A program made the position numbers and the translations under genes. Below are positions 51,167 to 64,000 of a stretch of DNA of 64,000 bases, in pieces. A model generated the notes under the pieces. The model was not told where the DNA came from, did not search any database, and was given only the letters and a program-made list of their open reading frames with translations. This DNA is from Sphingomonas abietis (GTDB lineage Bacteria > Pseudomonadota > Alphaproteobacteria > Sphingomonadales > Sphingomonadaceae): the NCBI RefSeq assembly GCF_027625475.1, contig NZ_CP115174.1, forward strand, positions 2,949,001 to 3,013,000, given 5' to 3'. Each line of letters starts with the position of its first letter. Position 1 is the first letter of the stretch.

Positions 51167-52586
51167 TAGCATTACAGTTGCATATCAAGCGGAACTCTGA
51201 ATCAATAGGTCTCCATGGTAAGGAGGCCGTGGATGACGGGTGCATCGATAGAAGCGACACTGGAGTTGTGGGCGTCCTCGCTGCGGGACGTGAAGAGCCG
51301 TATGCGCGGGTTGTTCACGCAGGAGCGCGTTGCGGCGTCTGCGAACCTGTTTCTGGACGGCTTGCTGAGTGACGAGCGCCGCAAGACGGGTTGGATGCGC
51401 GCCGAGGCTGCAGGGGATCCGGGGCCTTGGCGGCAACAGGCTATTTTGGGCCGCGGGCGATGGGAGGCAGACGAGCTTCGCGACATCGTACGAGACTATG
51501 TTGTTGAGAGCCTTGCGACCGACGAGGCAGTCCTGGTCATCGACGAGACCGGTTTCCTCAAGCAAGGCAAGGCTTCCTGTGGCGTTGCGCGTCAATATAC
51601 CGGATCGGCTGGCAAGATCACGAACTGCCAGATCGGTGTATTCGTGGCCTATGTATCGGCTCGCGGGCACGCGTTTATCGATCGCGCTTTGTATCTTCCA
51701 AAGAGCTGGACGGGTGATCCCGCACGACTTGCCGCAACCCATGTCCCTGAAGCGTTAGCCTTCGCCACCAAGCCGGCTTTGGCTGTTCAGATGATACAGC
51801 GGGCTTTGGCGGCCAAGGTCCCATTTTCATGGGTCGCGGCGGACGCCGTATATGGGGTCGGTGACGTCGAGCAGGCCCTGCGTCGAGCCTGCAAGGGCTA
51901 CGTTCTCGGCGTGAAGTCGGATCACTATTTTGGCTCTTGGGGCGACAAGCCCCCGGTCGCAGGCAAGGCGGAGGAGATCGCACAAGACCTCGATGCAGAC
52001 GCATGGAAACGCCTGTCCGCTGGTGAGGGCACAAAGGGCGCCCGTCTTCATGACTGGGCATATTGCGAGCTCGCCGATCTCGATGCCGATGAATATGACG
52101 AGACGAAATCAGGCGTGTGGACCCGGGGCCTGCTGATCCGCCGTAACATCAGCGACGGTGACCTGGCCTACTTCACGACCTGGTGCCCGGCCGGCACCAA
52201 CATCCAGACACTCGTCGCTGTCGAAGGCCGTCGTTGGGCGATTGAAGATAGCTTCGAGACCACCAAAAACGAACTCGGCCTCGATCATAACGAAAGCCGT
52301 TCGTGGCATGGCTGGCATCGCCACGTCTCTCTGGTCATGCTCGCCTTCGCCATGATGGCGGTGATCCGATACCGCGCCAATGCCGTGACGCCCCCAAAAA
52401 GATCGAGGACGCGGACCGTCAGGATCTGATCCGCTGGTCGATCCAGGAAGTTCGGCGGATCGCCAACAAGCTCGCTCAGCGCCGCATACGGCCCGCGTAC
52501 ATCATCGCCTGGTCATGCTGGCGACGCGCGCACCAAGCCGCTGCCAGACGAGCTCATCTCAAAACTAGAATGCAACTGTAATGCTA
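51167..52586 (+). mobile_element. IS701-family insertion sequence
   Basis: A 1420-base element with perfect 17-base terminal inverted repeats: TAGCATTACAGTTGCAT at 51167-51183 and its complement at 52570-52586. It holds one transposase gene reading left to right. The flanks read CTAG and CTAA at the two ends, both fitting the YTAR target taste of the family but not identical, so no clean duplication is claimed. It separates the nemA-like operon from the esterase gene. Confidence 0.85.
51233..52429 (+). CDS. IS701-family DDE transposase, C-terminus shifted out of frame
   Basis: 398 residues in the uninterrupted frame. Catalytic regions: first Asp in VLVIDETGFLKQG, second Asp in WVAADAVYG, and Glu in WAIEDSFETTKNELGLDHNES. 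ATG 51233 has AAGGAGG six bases upstream. After TPP the frame reads out to a stop at 52429, while the -1 frame continues with KKIEDADRQDLIRWSIQEV and ends at 52581 with RAHLKTRMQL, the usual family C-terminus. The switch lies in CCCCCAAAAA (52391-52400), which holds C CCA AAA, a possible -1 slippery heptamer. Either programmed shifting or loss of one C explains it. Confidence 0.85.
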   Translation: MTGASIEATLELWASSLRDVKSRMRGLFTQERVAASANLFLDGLLSDERRKTGWMRAEAAGDPGPWRQQAILGRGRWEADELRDIVRDYVVESLATDEAVLVIDETGFLKQGKASCGVARQYTGSAGKITNCQIGVFVAYVSARGHAFIDRALYLPKSWTGDPARLAATHVPEALAFATKPALAVQMIQRALAAKVPFSWVAADAVYGVGDVEQALRRACKGYVLGVKSDHYFGSWGDKPPVAGKAEEIAQDLDADAWKRLSAGEGTKGARLHDWAYCELADLDADEYDETKSGVWTRGLLIRRNISDGDLAYFTTWCPAGTNIQTLVAVEGRRWAIEDSFETTKNELGLDHNESRSWHGWHRHVSLVMLAFAMMAVIRYRANAVTPPKRSRTRTVRI

Positions 52587-53908: not shown

Positions 53909-54955
53909 TCAGCCGGTGATCGGGAAGATCGCGATGTCGTCGTCCTTGAAGGACGTCACCCAAAGCTCCTTGTTCAGATCGATCGCGCCGGTTCCCGCGC
54001 TCATCCCCTGGTAGGTGCCCGCCGGCACGACGACCGACATCGTCATCGTCTTCGGATCGAGCAGGTTGATCTGGAACTTGATCGTCTTGCAGCCGGGGAA
54101 CGGCGCGGCGTAGCATTTGAACATGGTATCCAGGGATTCGGCCTGGCCACCGACGTAAATCGCCGTGCCCCGGCTGTTCCAGCGGATATTGTCCGCCAGA
54201 TAGGGGACGCTGGCGAGCCTGACCGTGGCATGGCCCCCCGACAGGTCGACCCGGGCAACCTGCTTGCCGGCATAGAGATTGACGTAGATCGTCTTGCCGT
54301 CACGGGTCGCCAGGACGCCGTTCGGCCCCGAGAAGTCTGCCGTGCCGGGCACCGTCGACCAGCCGGCCACGGGCGACCATTTGAACACGCCCCCCAGGGG
54401 CGCGGCCGCCTTCATCTTGTCGTTCCGCGTGGGATCGTTCGGATTCCACAGGCTCGTGACGATCATCCCGCCGTCCGCGAGGCCGGCAACCGCGTCCGGA
54501 TAGGTATTCGCCGGGGCGACGGCACAACCGACCCAGGTGAAATGCGGCTTTCCGCCCGTGAGCGCCACGTCGAACACCTCGACCGATTCACGGCCGCCAT
54601 GGTTGACCAGGTAGAGCCGCTTCCGCTCGGGGTAATAATCGACTCCGTGCGTCGAAAGCGTCTTGAAGTCGGGCGCGCCCGGGCAGGTCGGGAACGCCTT
54701 CCTGTCGAACCGCGACGCTATGCCGCCCTTGATCGTCTCGAACGCCTTCGTCCGGGCATTGAACAGATAGAAGCCGGTCGGCGCGTTCGTCATCGAGTAG
54801 CTGCTTCCCACCACCCAATCATCATTGATGGCGACGGCATCCTCGACGCTGACCAGCTTCGAGATGATATGCGGGTGCGCCAGATCGACGGTCTCCGCAT
54901 GGACGGCAGGCACGGCCAGCGCGGCCAGGAACAGGCCGCAGGTTCGCTTCAACAC
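53909..54955 (-). CDS. Exported SMP-30/arylesterase-like beta-propeller protein
   Basis: 348 residues with a Sec signal (GLFLAALAVPAVHA). Blade features resemble paraoxonase/arylesterase and SMP-30 proteins: STHGVDYYPERKRLYLVNHGGRESVEVFDV, PDAVAGLADGGMIVTSLWNPND, DFSGPNGVLATRDGKTIYVNLYAG and DNIRWNSRGTAIYVGG. Paired Cys residues (CPGAP, GCAVAP, CYAAPFPGC) may be disulfides. Lactone hydrolysis is plausible but not shown. Divergent from the TetR gene at 55649, 693 bases away. Confidence 0.72.
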   Translation of the reverse strand: MLKRTCGLFLAALAVPAVHAETVDLAHPHIISKLVSVEDAVAINDDWVVGSSYSMTNAPTGFYLFNARTKAFETIKGGIASRFDRKAFPTCPGAPDFKTLSTHGVDYYPERKRLYLVNHGGRESVEVFDVALTGGKPHFTWVGCAVAPANTYPDAVAGLADGGMIVTSLWNPNDPTRNDKMKAAAPLGGVFKWSPVAGWSTVPGTADFSGPNGVLATRDGKTIYVNLYAGKQVARVDLSGGHATVRLASVPYLADNIRWNSRGTAIYVGGQAESLDTMFKCYAAPFPGCKTIKFQINLLDPKTMTMSVVVPAGTYQGMSAGTGAIDLNKELWVTSFKDDDIAIFPITG

Positions 54956-55648: not shown

Positions 55649-56284
55649 ATGGGGCGCAATCTGGGTTTCGTGAGGGATGATGCCCTCGAGGCCGCGATGC
55701 GCGTTTTTTGGGAAAAGGGCTATGAGGGCGCCAGTCTCGACTGCCTCACCCTGGCGATGGGCATCAACCGGCCCAGCCTCTACCGCACCTTCGGCAATAA
55801 GGACCGGCTCTTCCGGCTGGCCATGCGACGCTACGAGATCACGAAGCTCGGCTTCGCCTGGCGCGCGCTGCGCATGCCGACGGCATTGGGCGTCTGCGAA
55901 AGCTTCCTGTCCGGCTTCATCGCCCTGATCCTCGATCCCGCCGTGCCCGACGGTCTGCTCGGGATCCATGGCGCGATCGCCTGCTCGTCGGTGGCCGAGC
56001 CCATTCGGGATCTGCTGAACCATCGCCGCGAAATCTACATCTACGCCCTGAAACGCAGGCTGCGCGAAGCCCGCCGTGACGGCGACCTCGGTGTCGACGT
56101 CGATCCGAGCCATTTCGCCCGTTACATCGTCGCCATCGTCGGCGCGCTGTCGTTGCAGGGCAAAGCCGGCGACGGCCGTGCCCAACTGGATTCGACCGCC
56201 TATTTTGCGCTCTACGCGCTTCGGCAGGCGGGCGCGGAAGAAACCGGATGCCACGACGTCCCTCTGTCGAACGCGGTGGGGTGA
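55649..56284 (+). CDS. TetR/AcrR-family regulator
   Basis: 211 residues. HTH LEAAMRVFWEKGYEGASLDCLTLAMGINRPSLYRTFGNKDRLF at 13-55 (read as parts); C-terminal helical domain with GLLGIHGAIACSSVAEPIRDLL. AAGGAGG lies about six bases before ATG 55649. It converges on the putative mevalonate operon end at 56304 with 19 bases between; it may regulate the divergent propeller gene at 54955. Confidence 0.85.
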   Translation: MGRNLGFVRDDALEAAMRVFWEKGYEGASLDCLTLAMGINRPSLYRTFGNKDRLFRLAMRRYEITKLGFAWRALRMPTALGVCESFLSGFIALILDPAVPDGLLGIHGAIACSSVAEPIRDLLNHRREIYIYALKRRLREARRDGDLGVDVDPSHFARYIVAIVGALSLQGKAGDGRAQLDSTAYFALYALRQAGAEETGCHDVPLSNAVG

Positions 56285-56303
56285 CGCTCTCGTCCCGCGG
56301 GCC

Positions 56304-56729
56304 TTATCGGTCTGCGAACTCCCCGTGAAAATAACTCACGGGATCGCTGCCGCTCTCGCGTTCCCTCCACGTCTCGCGCAACACCCGCATCCCCTCCAGC
56401 GCCGCCGGAAAGCCGCAATAGACCGCGGCGTGCAGGATCATCTCGCGCAATTCGTCGATCGACAGGCCATTGTTGAGCGCACCGATCACATGCGCTTTGA
56501 GCTCGGCCGATCGATTGAGCGCGAGGAGCATCCCGATCGTCATGATCGAGCGGGATCGGCGGTCCAGCCCCTCGCGCGTCCAGACGTCCCCCCACGCGAC
56601 CTCCGTGACCAATGTCTGGAGGTCGTGCGCGATGTCTCCGGCAGCGGTGGCGGACGCGGCCACGCGCGCCTCCCCCATCACCTCTCGGCGGATTTGCTGT
56701 CCACGCTGAAAGCGATCATCTGCGCGCAA
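56304..56729 (-). CDS. Carboxymuconolactone-decarboxylase-family protein (PcaC-like)
   Basis: 141 residues. DDRFQRGQQIRREVMGEARV, VAWGDVWTREGLDRRSRSIMTIGMLLAL and ELREMILHAAVYCGFPAALEGMRV align with 4-carboxymuconolactone decarboxylase. TTG 56729 is preferred: AAGGAG lies six bases upstream and gives the full family N-terminus; ATG 56678 would cut it. Last gene of the seven-gene operon, 14 bases after the lactonase. No other protocatechuate-pathway gene is present, so its role here is unknown; it could act as an AhpD-like or lactone-processing enzyme. Confidence 0.78.
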   Translation of the reverse strand: MRADDRFQRGQQIRREVMGEARVAASATAAGDIAHDLQTLVTEVAWGDVWTREGLDRRSRSIMTIGMLLALNRSAELKAHVIGALNNGLSIDELREMILHAAVYCGFPAALEGMRVLRETWRERESGSDPVSYFHGEFADR

Positions 56730-56743
56730 TCTCGTCTCCTTTA

Positions 56744-57763
56744 TCAAGGGTGGGCGAATGTCGAGGCGCCCTTTGCGAACGCCGTCACATGATAGATGCT
56801 GCACCCCTGTCCCCCTTGGGCGTCGCTCGCGAGGATCAGAAGCTCATTGGTGCCGGGCCGAAAGGCCATGCTCGTCGAGCGGAGATTGTGACCCGTTTCT
56901 CGGCCTGGGATCAGAATCTGCCCGATCGGAATGCCCGTCGAATTGAAGACCAGAATTCGGCCCTGCCCGTAGATCGCGACATAGACATTGCCGTCCGAAT
57001 CCACCCGCATCGAGTCAGGCGCAGGGCCGATGAAGTGGTAGGGAATGGAGGTGCCGAACGGCGCAATGGTCGTTGCATCGCTGAGTTCGACCTTGTGCAG
57101 CGCGCCTGCGCTCAATTCATCGGCCCAGAGCGTCTTTCCGTCAGGACCAATTGCCACACCATTGGCAACGGCCAAGTTGGGGAGCACCGGCGTGATCGTC
57201 TTGCCGTCAGGTGACACGTACAACACGCCGCCCTTCGGATCACTGGTGTTGCCGCGGAAATCGGTGAAGTAAAATCCACCCTTGGCGTCAAAGTCCAGAT
57301 CATCGACGAGAAAGCCTGCGCTCGGCGGAATGATCGTTTCGACGTCCGAACCATCGGCTTTGGTCGCGATTATCCCGCCGCTATCCTTGAAGTTGCCAAG
57401 GCCCGCGATGAACAGGCGCCCGTCTTTATGCACGGCAAGGCCCGCAGGCGCGAACCCCGGCGGGGTGGCGAAGCTTGTGAGCTTGAGGTCGCGTGTCAGA
57501 CGATAGACGCGATCGCCGAATACGTCGACGAAGCGCAAATCGCCTTGGAGATCGAACACGGCCCCCTCAAGCTGCAGCCCCTTGTCCGAAACCTTGAAAT
57601 AAGGCTGGGCCGTGATCGTCTGGAGTGTCCGCTCCGACGGCGGGATGGGAACGGGGCCCTTAGTTTCGGTGGTGTAGGAAAGCGCGGGGAGCGATGCGGA
57701 ATAGGACGGGGCGACAGACCCCATTCCAGCCGCAAATGCGAGCAGATAAAATACCTTGATCAT
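56744..57763 (-). CDS. Exported SMP-30/gluconolactonase-family lactonase
   Basis: 339 residues with a Sec signal (VFYLLAFAAGMGSVAPSYSA). Metal-ligand positions of SMP-30 are visible: Glu in LEGAVFDLQGDLRFVDV, Asp/Asn in FLVDDLDFDAKGGFYFTDF, Asn in AVANGVAIGPDGKTLWADE and Asp in PDSMRVDSDGNVYVA. GGAGG precedes ATG 57763. It is periplasmic and sits 29 bases after a TctA-like permease in an operon with mvaA and mvaB; opening of mevalonolactone to mevalonate before uptake is my inference. Confidence 0.8.
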   Translation of the reverse strand: MIKVFYLLAFAAGMGSVAPSYSASLPALSYTTETKGPVPIPPSERTLQTITAQPYFKVSDKGLQLEGAVFDLQGDLRFVDVFGDRVYRLTRDLKLTSFATPPGFAPAGLAVHKDGRLFIAGLGNFKDSGGIIATKADGSDVETIIPPSAGFLVDDLDFDAKGGFYFTDFRGNTSDPKGGVLYVSPDGKTITPVLPNLAVANGVAIGPDGKTLWADELSAGALHKVELSDATTIAPFGTSIPYHFIGPAPDSMRVDSDGNVYVAIYGQGRILVFNSTGIPIGQILIPGRETGHNLRSTSMAFRPGTNELLILASDAQGGQGCSIYHVTAFAKGASTFAHP

Positions 57764-57792
57764 GGATCCCTCCGAATTTTCGCCGAATTTTT

Positions 57793-59175
57793 TCATGCGA
57801 ATAGCTTGAGAATTGCAGGCACTGTCAGGACGGCCGCATAATATCCCATGAATTGCACGCCCGTATTGAACCCGAAGGCACGGTAGAGCAGACCGCCCAA
57901 AAGGCCGATCACGACGATCACGAGCAACCCCAGAAGTGCGCCCTCCCAAAGACCGATCACGAGAACCAGCCCGACGAAGGTGGCGATGATCGCCTCATGA
58001 CTGATATGGCGGGACACGAATACTGCCGCCGAGCGGGCATAATTCATCGCCAAAGGATAAGCGACGATCGCTGCCAGCAGGACCGAAAGCAGCCCGTAGA
58101 ACAAGAATTGCGACGGGCTCATCATCGTGTGCAGATTCACGATGTGGGATCCCGCCGCATCGACGAAGAAGCGGGGGGGCGCATTGAACAGCGGCGCGGC
58201 CGGCCCCGCCGCGACAGGGCTGAGCGGAATTCCCAGCGCAACCAGCGGAATGATCGCTTCGGCGATATAGGTCGATTCCGTCACCCCGTTGCGCACGCTG
58301 AGCACGGTCGTGAGGCGGTGATAAGGATGCTTGATCCGGGCCGCGACCGCCTCGCCGAGCACGACGGTCATCGCCACCGGAGAAAAGACAAAGGTCGCGC
58401 TGGAGATCGCAGCCGTCGCCGCGACCGCGCGAAGTTGAACCGGGTCGAGGATCTTGAAGGGGTTCGGAAAATAGCCTTTCCAGCCCTTCACGTCTGGCGC
58501 GATCGAAACACGCCGCGGCTCGCTGCGCGCCATCCGCGCGCGTTCCGTCGGCGAGGCGACACTGAACAGATCGGCAATCAGGGGGCCGACCGCGATACCG
58601 AGAAAATAGCTTACGCTCAGCTTCACGTCGTGGGCGGCGGTAAAGGCCTGAAGCGCCAGAATGACGGCCACGAAAGGAACCAGCAGCATCACCGACGCCC
58701 ATCGGCCGGGCGAGAAACGCGCGATCAACACCGAGGCTGCGAGAAACAGCCATGGCGACGCCGCAACGATCTTTTGCCCGACGGGCGCGATGATCACCGC
58801 GAAAAGCACCGAAAGCGGCACCGCAATGATCGCGGAGATGAGCGCCGCCGAGACCATCTTCCGAAGCGCGATGTGCGGAACCCCCAATCGGCGGAGGTCG
58901 GTCGCCTGCTGCATGAGCGGGACGGCCATGGTATCGCCGGGAATGCCCAGCAAGGCGGTGGGGATCGCGTGCGTCATATGCTTGGAGACAGCCGCGGACA
59001 GCCAGAAGGTGAAGACCCCCACGGGCGGCACGCCCAACAGGACGACCAATAATGTGATCGGAGCGATCGTCGTTGTTTCGTCCGTACCGGACACCAGCCC
59101 CACTGCCGAGAAAACGATGGAACCCAGCAGCCCCATCGCGATGGCAACAAGCAAGTCGTGGAGAAGCCCGTGCAT
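57793..59175 (-). CDS. TctA-family tripartite tricarboxylate transporter large permease
   Basis: 460 residues, about 11-12 hydrophobic helices. The TctA signature is divergent: HAIPTALLGIPGDTMAVPLMQ near 75-95 (usual ILLNIPG), with a second repeat-like GIPLSPVAAGPAAPLFN near 310. It would import a carboxylate by a Na+ or proton gradient. ATG 59175 follows GGGAGG by seven bases and the preceding stop by one. No periplasmic TctC/Bug binding protein is encoded nearby, which is unusual. Confidence 0.75.
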   Translation of the reverse strand: MHGLLHDLLVAIAMGLLGSIVFSAVGLVSGTDETTTIAPITLLVVLLGVPPVGVFTFWLSAAVSKHMTHAIPTALLGIPGDTMAVPLMQQATDLRRLGVPHIALRKMVSAALISAIIAVPLSVLFAVIIAPVGQKIVAASPWLFLAASVLIARFSPGRWASVMLLVPFVAVILALQAFTAAHDVKLSVSYFLGIAVGPLIADLFSVASPTERARMARSEPRRVSIAPDVKGWKGYFPNPFKILDPVQLRAVAATAAISSATFVFSPVAMTVVLGEAVAARIKHPYHRLTTVLSVRNGVTESTYIAEAIIPLVALGIPLSPVAAGPAAPLFNAPPRFFVDAAGSHIVNLHTMMSPSQFLFYGLLSVLLAAIVAYPLAMNYARSAAVFVSRHISHEAIIATFVGLVLVIGLWEGALLGLLVIVVIGLLGGLLYRAFGFNTGVQFMGYYAAVLTVPAILKLFA

Positions 59176-59176
59176 G

Positions 59177-59626
59177 TCAGGCCTCCCGAACCGTAGGACC
59201 GTGCCGCCGGCCATCCGATGATTGCGAACCCTGTTCCTGCTCGTCCAAGGGCAGCATGTCGTAAAGTCCCAATGCCTTCAGCTCTTCGACCACGGCCGGG
59301 GGCAGGCTCTCATTCCGATCTTCGGCGCTCTTCATGATGGCTGCGACTGCCTCCTTGCGGGCTTGTTCATCATGGCCGCTCTCGATGAGAATGCGTTTGG
59401 GCGGAAATAGCCGTGCGCATACCGCGCAGCTGAGAAGACAACCGCCGAGCCCGACGAGCATCGCATAGGTCTTGCTGACCGACGCATCGCTTCCCAAGAT
59501 GCTGAAGAGGTGTATCGCACCGAAGTAGGCAAGAAGGCTGATCGTGGCACCGATCGCGATCGAGGCCCGCAGATGCCGTGTATCGACGATATCGCCCCAT
59601 ACCTCGGCAAGGTGATCAGAAGACAT
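59177..59626 (-). CDS. Two-helix membrane protein, possible TctB counterpart
   Basis: 149 residues: helices at about 24-45 (IAIGATISLLAYFGAIHLFSIL) and 53-72 (YAMLVGLGGCLLSCAVCARLF), then a charged soluble C-terminus of 75 residues. Its place directly before the TctA-like gene (one base apart) suggests the small permease subunit, although TctB normally has four helices. Its start overlaps the preceding gene by 11 bases. No family recognised with certainty. Confidence 0.65.
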   Translation of the reverse strand: MSSDHLAEVWGDIVDTRHLRASIAIGATISLLAYFGAIHLFSILGSDASVSKTYAMLVGLGGCLLSCAVCARLFPPKRILIESGHDEQARKEAVAAIMKSAEDRNESLPPAVVEELKALGLYDMLPLDEQEQGSQSSDGRRHGPTVREA

Positions 59627-60524
59627 AAACGATCCTTCCGCTCAGGCCGGCATCCTGACGGAAGCCCCCCGATGTCCTGGTCTGATGATTGGCTTCAGCG
59701 AGCAGCTGGAGCTTCGGGGTGACGCTCTTCGCCACGACGAACCGGATCTCGTCATAATCCGTTTTCACGCCGTTGCGGACGTCATCGAGCCGCTGCACGC
59801 CGCCGCGAAAGCCTTGGTAGCCGACCGATGTCGACAGGCCTTTGGCCCATGCATAGTTGAGAAAGGCCTGCCATTGTGTCGAGACCCGCTGGGTCAGGCG
59901 CTGGTCGAGCGCATTGGCTTTCCCGTTCACGCCGTAGAAGAAAATGTCGGCCCCGAGATCCATCGACCATTTGCCGGCGATCTTCTGGTCGAGCGACATT
60001 CCCGGGTTCGAAACGAACCGATGACCACCGAGATTGACGCTGCGGCTCTTGTCATATTCGCCGGTCGGCAGTGTCAGATAATGGGCAACGGCAAAATAGG
60101 TGCCGTGAACGTCATCGCTGATCGGCCAGTAGACACTGCCTATGAGCGTGTCGCCAAACCCCCTGTCATGTCCGAGCGATGTATCGCCGATCCGGGCATG
60201 ATCCAGGGAGCCGCCGATCTGCACGACGCTGAGCAACGCGCGGTGATCGCCGACATTGAAATAGTCTGCGATCTTCAGCACGCCGGTTTGCGTGCGGAAG
60301 TTGGCGTTCTGGGTCACGCCATTCTGCCCCGAAGCCTGGTAATCCGAATGATGCCCGTAATAGCCGTACAAGACCCCGATCAGGGTATTCTCCGGGAGCG
60401 TCACATATTCATAGGGCTCAATTTCCACGGCTTCGGCCTTTGTCGTTACGCCGCTCGCCAAAAAGAGAGCAAAACGAAGCAATATCGAACGCCAAGCGAC
60501 GCGCCGCGTCTTCGGCACTTTCAT
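59616..60524 (-). CDS. Outer-membrane channel-like protein (phenol MetA-pathway family)
   Basis: 302 residues. Signal peptide (LLRFALFLASGVTTKAEA), then a beta-barrel with strands such as LIGVLYGYYGHHSDY, GTYFAVAHYLTLPTGEYD, MSLDQKIAGKWSMDLGADIFFYG and a terminal GLSGRIVYVF ending in Phe. This fits the PF13557-type outer-membrane proteins often placed with aromatic and hydrocarbon catabolic operons. ATG 60524 follows AAGGGG by nine to ten bases. It probably serves uptake of the operon's substrate. Confidence 0.75.
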   Translation of the reverse strand: MKVPKTRRVAWRSILLRFALFLASGVTTKAEAVEIEPYEYVTLPENTLIGVLYGYYGHHSDYQASGQNGVTQNANFRTQTGVLKIADYFNVGDHRALLSVVQIGGSLDHARIGDTSLGHDRGFGDTLIGSVYWPISDDVHGTYFAVAHYLTLPTGEYDKSRSVNLGGHRFVSNPGMSLDQKIAGKWSMDLGADIFFYGVNGKANALDQRLTQRVSTQWQAFLNYAWAKGLSTSVGYQGFRGGVQRLDDVRNGVKTDYDEIRFVVAKSVTPKLQLLAEANHQTRTSGGFRQDAGLSGRIVYVF

Positions 60525-60643
60525 AGCATCTGTCCCCTTGGTCAGGCCCCGCTGGGGGGCATGTCGGTCGCTGAGGCAGCGATGCCCCGCTCCGATCGTT
60601 TTCCCGACAATGAGGCAGCCCGGAATGGACTGCCATGTATCCG

Positions 60644-61597
60644 TCATGAGGCGAGTTTGATCTCGCTCTTACCGTTACGCCGATCCCGATCGCCGCCCCG
60701 ATCGGAGCGACGTGCCGCGAACAATTTGGAGCGAGGTGCGATACGCAGATCGTCCGCAATATAGGTCACCGCATCGAGCAGACGTTCAAGGTCCACGCCC
60801 GTGGCGATCCCCAGCCCGTCCAGCATGTAGAGAAGATCCTCGGTCGCCAGGTTGCCGCTGGCACCTGCCGCATAGGGACATCCACCCAGCCCGCCGGCCG
60901 CGCTGTCGACGACAGCAATCCCGGTTTCCAGGCAGGCAAGCACGTTGGCCAGGGCCTGACCATATGTATCATGGAAGTGGATCGCGAGATTCTTCGTGGG
61001 AATCGAGCCGGATACGCATTCGACCATGGCCCGGGCCTTGCCGGGTGTGCCGACGCCGATCGTGTCGCCGAGCGATATCTCGTAGCAACCGAGCTCGATC
61101 AGCCGTTCAGCGACCGACACCACCGATGCCAACGCCACTTCGCCCTCATAGGGACAACCCAGGACGCACGAGACATATCCGCGAACCGCAATCCCATTGG
61201 CCTTCGCCATCTGGACTACCGGTGCGACGCGCTCGAACGATTCATCGATCGAGCAGTTGATGTTCTTCCGGCTGAAGCTCTCCGATGCCGCCAGGAAAAG
61301 CGCTATTTCACGCGCTCCTGCCGCCATCGCATCTTCCAACCCACGCAGATTGGGGACCAGAACGGGGTAGCTAATGCCCGGCCGCGGCGGCAGCCCGCGC
61401 AACACGTCGCCTGAGCCCGCCATTTGGGGAACCCATTTCGGCGACACGAAGCTGCCCGCTTCCACTGTCTCGAGGCCACTCGAGACAAGCGCCTCGATCA
61501 AGGCGATGCGCTGCGAGGGCGTGACCACGCTGGCTTCGTTTTGGAGGCCGTCCCGCGGCCCGACCTCCACGATCCGGACTGTGCTCGACGCGGCCAT
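60644..61597 (-). CDS. mvaB: Hydroxymethylglutaryl-CoA lyase
   Basis: 317 residues, a DRE-TIM metallolyase. It cleaves HMG-CoA to acetyl-CoA and acetoacetate. Visible: EVGPRDGLQNE with Arg15-Asp16, GSFVSPKWVPQMA, Lys/Asn of SRKNINCS, HFHDTYGQ with His207/His209, and GLGGCPYAAGASGN with catalytic Cys240. The C-terminal 25 residues are Arg/Lys-rich. ATG 61597 overlaps the mvaA stop (TGATG), so the two are coupled. Confidence 0.93.
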   Translation of the reverse strand: MAASSTVRIVEVGPRDGLQNEASVVTPSQRIALIEALVSSGLETVEAGSFVSPKWVPQMAGSGDVLRGLPPRPGISYPVLVPNLRGLEDAMAAGAREIALFLAASESFSRKNINCSIDESFERVAPVVQMAKANGIAVRGYVSCVLGCPYEGEVALASVVSVAERLIELGCYEISLGDTIGVGTPGKARAMVECVSGSIPTKNLAIHFHDTYGQALANVLACLETGIAVVDSAAGGLGGCPYAAGASGNLATEDLLYMLDGLGIATGVDLERLLDAVTYIADDLRIAPRSKLFAARRSDRGGDRDRRNGKSEIKLAS

Positions 61598-62880
61598 CAG
61601 GCGCCCCGTATCTCGGCAAGCAGCTTGTCCGCCGTGTCCGTGTTGATCGACTTGCTCTCGATCAGGCGGCGGGCGACCTCGGCCACCTCTTCACCCGTCG
61701 CGCCTACGGTTATCGCCACATTCTGCGCATGAAGCGCCATATGGCCCTTTTGAATCCCGTCGGTTGCGAGGGCCTTCATCGCGCCAAAATTCTGCGCCAG
61801 GCCGACGGCCGCGATGATCCGCGCGAGATGTTCGGCAGAGTCGACATCGAGGATCGCCAAAGCCGCACGCGCGGTCGGATGAATCTTCGTGGCGCCGCCG
61901 ATCAGCCCTACCGCCATGGGCATTTCGAGAACGCCCGAGAGATCGCCGTTCTTGGTGACCTCCCAACGGCTGAGGCTGCGATACCAGCCATCCTTGGCAG
62001 CGTAGGCATGGGCACCTGCCTCGACGGCCCGCGTGTCGTTTCCGGTCGCCAGCACCACGGCCGATACGCCGTTCATGATGCCCTTATTGTGGGTGGCAGC
62101 GCGATAGGGGTCGGTATCGGCGAATTCATATGCCGCGATCATCGCGTCGCGAACCGCTTCGCCGCCGATGTCCTCGCAGCGCCATGTGGCCCGCGCGCGC
62201 GCCACGCGGCGATCGGCCAAATTGGAGAGAATGCGCAGCAAAGGGCGGCCGCCAGTCCATTCGGCGAGCTGCGGCGCGAGCCGCTCTGCCATCGTGTTGA
62301 CGGCATTGGCGCCCATCGCATCCTTCGTATCGATGACAATGTGGGTGATCACCATCGTTCCGGAAGGCGCCTCGATCAACCGCACCTCGAGATCGCGGAA
62401 GCCACCACCGAAACGCACCAGAAGCGGGTCGCACTCGTTGCAGATCACCTCGATCTCGGAGCGGCGTTCGAGAATCGCGACGCGAGCCGTCGCAGGGTCC
62501 GTCAGATCGAGCAGCTGGATCTGGGCGATCATCTGCGTGCCCGACATCGAGGTGGTGAACCCACCATTCTCATAACATTGACGCGAAGAGTTGCCGACTG
62601 CGGCGATCACCGACGACTCTTCGGTCGCCATGGGCACCAGCAAGTCCCGACCATCGATCTTCATGTTGGTTGCGACGCCGACCGGAATGGCGATCGTCGA
62701 AATCATGTTTTCGATCATGTGATCGGCGAGATGCGCATCGATATTCGACGACGCCGACAGTTGATCGACATGCACCTGGTCGAGGGTGGCAAATTCGGAC
62801 ACCTTCTTCAGGCGTTCCGCGATCTCGAGTTTATGAAAGCCGGAAATACGTGACGTTTTGGGGCTCGTTTCCTGCAGCAC
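61597..62880 (-). CDS. mvaA: Class II hydroxymethylglutaryl-CoA reductase
   Basis: 427 residues, almost the length of the 428-residue Pseudomonas mevalonii enzyme. Motifs: ADHMIENMISTIAIP near 52-66, VPMATEESSVIAA with the catalytic Glu near 87, DTKDAMGANAVNTMAE near 185, HNKGIMNG with Lys266, TGNDTRAVEAGAHAYA with Asp282, and QKGHMALHAQN with His380. GTG 62880 has GGAG seven bases upstream. In this class the favoured direction can be mevalonate oxidation to HMG-CoA, and coupling to HMG-CoA lyase supports catabolism. It is the first gene of the operon. Confidence 0.93.
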   Translation of the reverse strand: MLQETSPKTSRISGFHKLEIAERLKKVSEFATLDQVHVDQLSASSNIDAHLADHMIENMISTIAIPVGVATNMKIDGRDLLVPMATEESSVIAAVGNSSRQCYENGGFTTSMSGTQMIAQIQLLDLTDPATARVAILERRSEIEVICNECDPLLVRFGGGFRDLEVRLIEAPSGTMVITHIVIDTKDAMGANAVNTMAERLAPQLAEWTGGRPLLRILSNLADRRVARARATWRCEDIGGEAVRDAMIAAYEFADTDPYRAATHNKGIMNGVSAVVLATGNDTRAVEAGAHAYAAKDGWYRSLSRWEVTKNGDLSGVLEMPMAVGLIGGATKIHPTARAALAILDVDSAEHLARIIAAVGLAQNFGAMKALATDGIQKGHMALHAQNVAITVGATGEEVAEVARRLIESKSINTDTADKLLAEIRGA

Positions 62881-63027
62881 TCTTACTCTCCGAGATGAAA
62901 TCCGTGACCCTGCAAGAGGTCCGAAGGCGAGAATAAGGGGTCTCTCTCCGGTGCCTCTCTTGGGCCTTTGATCCTGGATAATCCTGCTGATGGGATTTTG
63001 GGAGGTACGGATCGGCGCTATCTGAGC

Positions 63028-63038
63028 GGAACTGTACC
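63028..63038. promoter_or_regulatory. GGAACNGTNCC motif, copy 1 (mvaA side)
   Basis: GGAACTGTACC, inside the near-palindrome GCGGAACTGTACCGC, 148 bases upstream of mvaA. The 575-base gap 62881-63455 holds three such motifs and no gene. Confidence 0.5.
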
Positions 63039-63400
63039 GCCTTCGACGAGGTGACGGTGTGGAATACGGTCCAGAATGGTGGTTTAGCCGACTTCCAAGA
63101 CAGGACACGAAGGAACGCGAATGCGTGGCGTGGACCTGCCATGCAAGCGTGAAGGACCAACCGCGCGGGAAGAGACCGATATCGATGATTGGGTGGCAAG
63201 CCCTCACGACCCTGCACATGAGGCCGTCTGTTACGCGACGATTGGCCGGCGAAATCCGATGACGACGCGCGTCGTCATCCGATGCGTTCCCTGAATATTC
63301 GGTCGCGACCCATTGTGCATGGCTGCGAGGCGGATCGGCCAAAGAGCAGCTCTTGCGCCTCCTACTGGGGACGGATAACGCTCGGCCGGAGTATTTAGCA

Positions 63401-63435
63401 GGAACAGTTCCTAACAATCCGACCGGAACCGTGCC
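63401..63435. promoter_or_regulatory. GGAACNGTNCC motifs, copies 2 and 3 (regulator side)
   Basis: GGAACAGTTCC (63401-63411, perfect palindrome around A) and GGAACCGTGCC (63425-63435), 24 bases apart start to start and 21-55 bases before the MocR start. Tandem spacing fits a MocR/GntR operator and autoregulation. Confidence 0.55.
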
Positions 63436-63455
63436 CTCGCCAGCAAAGGTACAAA

Positions 63456-64000
63456 ATGCCTTCCGCCCCGCACAAAATCGAGTTCGTGATAGATGGCGTG
63501 TTGGGACAGCTGCGCGCCGGCCTCCTGAAGCCGGGTGAGCGCCTGCCGTCCATTCGGCAAGAATCCGAGCGGCTCGGGGTGGGAAAGAATACCGTCGTAG
63601 AAGCCTATCTGAGGCTTGTTGGCCAAGGCTTTCTGCAAGCCAAACCGGGATCCGGCTATTTCGTCGTCCGCTCTCCGCCCCGAGCACTGGAGGATAGGCC
63701 ACCGCCGATCGTGGCGGCAACGGATCGCGCCGCCCTGCTGACAGAGCAGCTCGAAAGGCGGCTGCCGATTCGGCCCGGTGACGGCAGACCACCGCCGGGA
63801 TGGCTGGATGCCTCCGAACTCAAGCGCTATCTGTCCTTCCAGCGCTTCCAAGATGCCGACGCATATAATTCGGCCTGGGGTTATCTGCCGCTAAGGGAAC
63901 GACTCTGCGGCGCGTTGGGCGAGCGCGGGATTGCCTGCAGCGCCAATCAGATGCTGATGACGCACGGCGCCAATCACGCGCTGGATTTGATCATCCGCCG
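63456..64000 (+). CDS. MocR/PdxR-type GntR regulator, N-terminal part (runs off window)
   Basis: 181 complete codons visible, open to the right edge. Residues about 5-75 are a GntR winged helix: LRAGLLKPGERLPSIRQESERLGVGKNTVVEAY, then GFLQAKPGSGYFV. After a linker, residues from about 115 begin an aminotransferase-class-I-like domain (SFQRFQDADAYNSAWGYLPLRERLCGALGERGI and MLMTHGANHALDLIIRR), as in MocR regulators that bind PLP. AAAGG lies six bases before ATG 63456. Divergent from mvaA, so the likely regulator of the mevalonate operon. Confidence 0.88.
   Translation, partial: MPSAPHKIEFVIDGVLGQLRAGLLKPGERLPSIRQESERLGVGKNTVVEAYLRLVGQGFLQAKPGSGYFVVRSPPRALEDRPPPIVAATDRAALLTEQLERRLPIRPGDGRPPPGWLDASELKRYLSFQRFQDADAYNSAWGYLPLRERLCGALGERGIACSANQMLMTHGANHALDLIIR

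Follow-up and report, generated by a model that had tools for sequence, protein, structure and literature searches.

A candidate inducible operon for mevalonate and mevalonolactone catabolism in Sphingomonas abietis, with a TctA-type permease pair, a Drp35-like lactonase and a MocR regulator

Mevalonate is a building block of sterols and related compounds in animals, fungi and many other organisms, and for decades its breakdown has been understood as the work of two enzymes, encoded in Pseudomonas mevalonii by the mevalonate catabolism genes mvaAB. Which further genes might serve mevalonate uptake, lactone opening and control is the question raised by a locus of Sphingomonas abietis, which offers candidates for all three in a permease pair, a periplasmic lactonase and a regulator. 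The locus lies at the end of a 64,000-nucleotide stretch (the window; contig NZ_CP115174.1, positions 2,949,001 to 3,013,000), which belongs to one contig of 4.43 Mb with a completeness figure of 99.99%. Open reading frames together with Pfam and NCBIfam matches showed seven minus-strand genes with overlaps or short gaps (56304-62880) and a divergent MocR gene, in agreement with a preliminary description of this DNA. We consider it highly probable that these genes form an inducible operon for the use of mevalonate and mevalonolactone as carbon source, comprising a lactonase, TctA-type import, HMG-CoA reductase (HMGR) and HMG-CoA lyase (HMGL), under MocR control. Judged from the sequence, catabolism of mevalonate by this operon is very likely and use of mevalonolactone likely. 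The pathway is of a familiar type; its equipment is unusually complete and in part new.

The HMGR gene (61597-62880, minus strand) probably starts with the GTG at 62880, which by eye is preceded by GGAG, within a frame that stays open to 63792. Its product scored 444 bits against the 'degradative' model TIGR00532 (cut-off 260) and 70 bits against the NADPH-type model TIGR00533 (cut-off 442), and is by this wide score margin predicted to be a degradative class II (mvaA-type) reductase; its best named relative, from Sphingosinicella soli, is 74% identical. The protein aligned to the P. mevalonii enzyme (PDB 1qax) over residues 5-427, and a hand count on this alignment found E83, K267, D283 and H381, which we take to be catalytic, and D146, presumably NAD-selecting, to be identical. 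The neighbouring mvaB-type HMGL (60644-61597, minus strand) matched NF004283 over its full length (429 bits, cut-off 246) and human HMG-CoA lyase (PDB 2cw6; E 1.5e-110, residues 6-292, 287 residues aligned), and no second HMG-CoA lyase turned up in the genome, whose other PF00682 place is leuA (2-isopropylmalate synthase). The two genes have one base in common, which bears out the TGATG overlap described before. As in P. mevalonii mvaAB, an NAD-type HMGR thus adjoins HMGL, in the presumed oxidative direction: HMGR would convert mevalonate with NAD+ and CoA to HMG-CoA, as expected from its family and the kept residues, and HMGL would, like other members of its family, cleave HMG-CoA to acetyl-CoA and acetoacetate. 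Acetoacetate may then be activated by a CoA-transferase pair elsewhere in the genome (3354894-3357084), and because activation depends on genes outside the operon, the term 'self-contained' used for it earlier was too strong. Unlike the mvaAB pair, for which only the reductase and lyase genes were compared, the pair in the window is joined by genes for a MocR regulator, for a lactonase and for a permease pair of TctA type.

The SMP-30 protein (56744-57763, minus strand; PF08450) had Drp35 of Staphylococcus aureus as its best PDB match over approximately 313 amino acids, with entries 2dg0 and 2dso at about 1e-100 (1.2e-100, residues 25-337) and the next entry at 2.3e-9. Identity to Drp35 is about half by eye, and 49-50% to a Staphylococcus epidermidis relative by BLAST. 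Drp35 residues E48, D138, N185, D236 and S237, which we take to be metal and catalytic positions, are all kept in the window lactonase; of the two Drp35 chains, 2dso carries N where 2dg0 has D at a compared site of this kind. A metal-site scheme that Drp35 shares is described in PMC3551927. According to PMC6052127, mevalonolactone is the best measured substrate of Drp35, the DL form being hydrolysed at 478 umol/min/mg and other lactones at least 100-fold more slowly, and this published enzymology of a homologue strengthens the earlier reading of the gene as a lactonase. The same source places Drp35 in a mevalonate-synthesising host as a rescue bypass, whereas the window lactonase has a signal-like N terminus, judged by eye alone, and lies in a catabolic operon. 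It is therefore probably a periplasmic mevalonolactonase on sequence grounds: lactone and acid would cross the outer membrane, perhaps via the operon's own channel, and the lactone would be opened in the periplasm, as homology and gene position suggest.

Intact lactonase genes were found beside HMGR only in the window and in two other loci, following HMGR-TctA in L073 and HMGR in L006, and in Rhizobium etli 8C-3 (L166, 9426-9730) a fragmentary Drp35-like lactonase immediately follows TctA. Conserved synteny, suggested as a check in the preliminary description, hence extended for the lactonase to two other HMGR loci plus a remnant, and was not seen in the 12 plasmid contexts described below. 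In the class sample, with up to five candidates per genome scored, a lactonase at E<=1e-40 occurred in 4 of 385 genomes (that of the window and three of one genus), all four with a degradative HMGR, itself present in 13 of 385 overall; in the three one-genus genomes, HMGR is on another contig. Among plasmids, 15 matches gave 12 contexts (H13, H16 and H18 left out), none with HMGR within the 4-6 kb stretches, so that a Drp35-like gene as such was ruled out as a marker of mevalonate use. In 9 of these 12, the residue corresponding to D138 of Drp35 is N, and the lack of HMGR in all 12 led us to draw a D138/N138 split. When the window protein was compared with 17 relatives (18 rows in all), D and N occurred in nine each, with D138 in the window, L006 and L073 (all three beside HMGR), S. 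epidermidis, the three one-genus genomes and two Variovorax plasmids. Seven of the nine N138 rows carry annotation, and these lie near aldo/keto reductase, PaoABC or cyclophilin-like genes; the N138 plasmid loci L174-L180, L184 and L185 form a sister subgroup to the D138 proteins. The locus also provides a gene-neighbourhood argument for mevalonolactone as a true substrate of the Asp138 subgroup of Drp35.

The many Drp35-like proteins away from HMGR, together with the CMD protein at the operon end (56304-56804, minus strand; PF02627), which is PcaC-like and scores below the TIGR02425 cut-off, raise the alternative that the SMP-30 and PcaC-like proteins degrade some other hydroxy-lactone or an aromatic lactone and that HMGR and HMGL are mere neighbours. 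In Variovorax SRS16 (L173, 5119-12142), a CMD homologue (45%) precedes a D138 Drp35-like lactonase (60%), with CaiB-type CoA-transferase, enoyl-CoA hydratase and Liv-ABC genes as neighbours and no HMGR in the stretch; the lactonase-CMD pair can therefore serve something else, and this locus made the alternative slightly more, and the mevalonate operon slightly less, probable. Against this, the operon holds no ring-cleavage gene, and its lactonase keeps D138 like Drp35 and belongs to the type that follows HMGR-TctA or HMGR in L073 and L006, so that we regard catabolism of another lactone as quite improbable.

Returning to mevalonate and its lactone as the preferred substrates, we considered how the acid could enter the cell. 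The permease gene (57793-59214, minus strand; start at 59214 or 59175) matched the TctA family of tripartite tricarboxylate transporters by Pfam (PF01970, E 7.8e-21). In place of TctB stands a 149-amino-acid membrane protein (59177-59626, minus strand) with the signature LAEVWGD plus ARLFPPKR and neither a Pfam match at 1e-3 nor an NCBIfam match; among the matches listed for it were 19 proteins, the query's own copy included, and the signature was clear in the alignment of 15 of them. The operon thus resembles TctABC transporters in its TctA permease and differs in having a small subunit without a Pfam match and no TctC gene, all operon reading frames being assigned. With TctA alone as query, a search of 72,556 plasmids at E<=1e-90 returned six records, among them Lichenicola cladoniae (from lichen) and Rhizobium etli, and all six showed the same run of MocR, HMGR, small-protein and TctA genes, four of them also HMGL, with no TctC annotated or matched beside TctA. 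Because of this constant association with HMGR, we infer that TctA is a probable mevalonate importer, and propose TctA and the 149-amino-acid protein as a candidate mevalonate permease pair that departs from the usual TctABC design and would import mevalonate by means of an unusual small subunit, without a binding protein encoded in the operon. Sequence searches of the PDB found no TctA structure and, with one TRAP protein as query, no TRAP binding protein named as mevalonate-bound.

The remaining gene of the operon (59616-60524, minus strand; start chosen manually) encodes an outer-membrane channel-like protein (PF13557 Phenol_MetA_deg, 6.6e-17). By tblastn it had no match in the other HMGR loci searched, where the CMD protein had only a distant match in L010 (about 6.5 kb away) and weak pieces in L148. 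The other HMGR loci thus lend these two proteins no support, and roles for them in mevalonate use are guesses.

In a survey of degradative HMGR genes that counted the genome under study each time, scores above the cut-off came from 4 of 396 genomes sampled in the order, 13 of 385 in the class and 15 of 398 in the phylum. At 26 other class and phylum loci, with module-calling thresholds set by the author in the script, the small protein and TctA accompanied HMGR in five, as they did in 5 of the best 80 genome-contig loci, and TctA alone in one. HMGL was present in seven, a close TRAP transporter in five (three of one genus), a distant TRAP in three, a Liv-type ABC transporter in two (one also with TRAP), a CaiB-type CoA-transferase plus enoyl-CoA hydratase (ECH) in five, CaiB alone in one, and none of the transporter or CaiB modules in five. 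Overall, conserved synteny extended to the MocR, HMGR, small-protein and TctA genes and often to HMGL, and the outer-membrane and CMD genes fell outside it. A tree was drawn of 48 HMGRs chosen by type, without L066, L078, L160, L169, L171 and the untyped loci. On it, the three main types required 10 changes versus 23 with shuffled labels; module types are therefore clustered, yet have been repeatedly swapped. The window HMGR stands beside those of CaiB-type sphingomonads, followed by Acetobacteraceae TctA types.

This tree position bears on a second alternative, in which the main substrate of the operon would be a larger compound from which a mevalonate-like unit, e.g. a siderophore acyl group, is set free, as may be the case for its sister loci. 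In four of these, from probable sphingomonads (L002, L098, L099 and L100), HMGR and MocR are accompanied by genes for a family III CoA-transferase, an enoyl-CoA hydratase and an amidohydrolase. Further neighbours differ from locus to locus: an MFS transporter (three loci), an esterase (three), Pfam-confirmed TonB receptors (two) and a PepSY protein. The window HMGR and MocR share 70-75% identity with their counterparts in L002, L098 and L099, which, with the neighbouring place in the tree, favours such a function for the window. The CaiB/ECH pair is, however, not in the operon, and the top genomic hit of the L098 CaiB shares 39% identity with it, leaving no orthologue, so that a CaiB/ECH-type function was set aside for this genome. 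The operon instead has the TctA module, which elsewhere occurs with HMGR and without the CaiB/ECH pair, making it very improbable that a larger compound is the main substrate.

For the sister loci themselves, catabolism of a siderophore acyl unit is possible. Fungal siderophores such as fusarinines and coprogen carry anhydromevalonate as their acyl group, and carnitine users hydrate crotonobetaine with a CaiB-type CoA-transferase plus an enoyl-CoA hydratase. CaiB (62-71%) and ECH (54-72%) homologues are found near HMGR in several Actinobacteria and Proteobacteria, and with CaiB as plasmid query both of two matches lay beside HMGR. The favoured reading is that the sister loci would hydrate anhydromevalonate to mevalonate, with use of 3-methylglutaconate as its rival, and their CaiB/ECH content, near TonB receptors in two of the four, suggests that the same core may feed on anhydromevalonate from fungal siderophores. 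At the Actinobacterial HMGR loci L044, L047, L053, L066, L068 and L181, HyuA/HyuB genes stand beside CaiB/ECH; their products, tested for L068, are caprolactamase-like and below the cut-off. Tentatively, and as a reading we hold to be possible and rather doubtful, MocR and HMGR (often with HMGL) could be a movable regulon core with exchangeable feeders, in which the TctA pair or TRAP supplies mevalonate, CaiB plus ECH supplies siderophore anhydromevalonate, and HyuAB of Actinobacteria opens the diketopiperazine core. If so, fungal siderophores would supply bacteria with carbon as well as iron.

Whether the HMGR of the window is free for catabolism depends on the isoprenoid route of its host. 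The MEP genes dxr (PF02670) and ispE are present, HMG-CoA synthase was not found in the genome search, and the sole GHMP-C kinase found is ispE; isoprenoids are therefore most likely made via the MEP pathway, leaving HMGR for catabolism. By gene content, the adjacency of HMGR and HMGL together with a non-mevalonate isoprenoid route places the locus with mvaAB-type operons. An isoprenoid synthetic or salvage function of HMGR instead of catabolism, conceivable in that the reaction is reversible in principle, is improbable in the extreme, as these genomic findings on dxr, HMG-CoA synthase and GHMP-C kinases speak against a biosynthetic role and HMGL overlaps HMGR on the same strand; this reading was rejected. 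A complete biosynthetic mevalonate pathway without MEP genes, named in the preliminary description as what would speak against catabolism, was thus not what the genome contained, and its catabolic reading gained support from the HMGR and HMGL family matches, the MEP background, the Drp35 likeness and the TctA-HMGR association.

The divergent MocR-type gene (63456-64000, plus strand; PF00392) has its 5' part in the window and encodes 458 amino acids, ending at genome position 3013832. In 20 of the 26 sampled loci, a MocR homologue is encoded close to HMGR in the opposite orientation, and relatives are annotated as PLP-dependent aminotransferase family. Like the MocR/GabR regulators treated in PMC5320631, it combines a GntR-type DNA-binding part with repeated boxes; that comparative MocR study contains no occurrence of HMG-CoA, hydroxymethylglutaryl, mvaA or mevalonate. 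Comparison of upstream regions yielded the candidate operator boxes GGAACAGTTCC, GGAACC and GGTACA (63401-63453, no strand assigned) and a further candidate box, GGAACTGTACC, upstream of HMGR (63028-63038, no strand assigned). TGTACC was present in 29 of 41 MocR upstream regions (window included) and CTGTACC in 24, with 12 lacking TGTACC, counts that are inflated by kinship among the loci. The best 7-mer over 50 block shuffles reached at most 8 regions, and of 4000 random segments of 160 bp drawn from the other 40 loci, 157 contained TGTACC. Seven loci from other queries, of which two regions were 200 bp and one ran into HMGR, had TGTACC in four (2.3% at random) and TGT[AC]CC in six (5.6% at random). 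The box occurs with each module type (TctA, TRAP, Liv-ABC and CoA-transferase), and because of this conservation we infer that MocR would control the operon via TGTACC-like boxes. Promoter and terminator scans of the locus scored near chance. MocR with its readable predicted operator might serve as a mevalonate sensor. The highest-ranked, largely open-access literature, in the parts accessible, contained no account of permease pair, in-operon lactonase and shared regulator as one system, in line with the earlier remark that no description of this exact gene combination was known to its author; this is not proof of novelty.

On the same strand as the operon, the window also encodes a 348-amino-acid protein (53909-54955) without Pfam or NCBIfam match. 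A DDE_5 transposase gene (51215-52429) lies approximately 4 kb from the operon's end, and GC content is 0.607-0.620 in 56001-64000 versus 0.633-0.715 in the rest of the window; because of the nearby transposase gene and the lower GC, a recent arrival of the operon region is possible.
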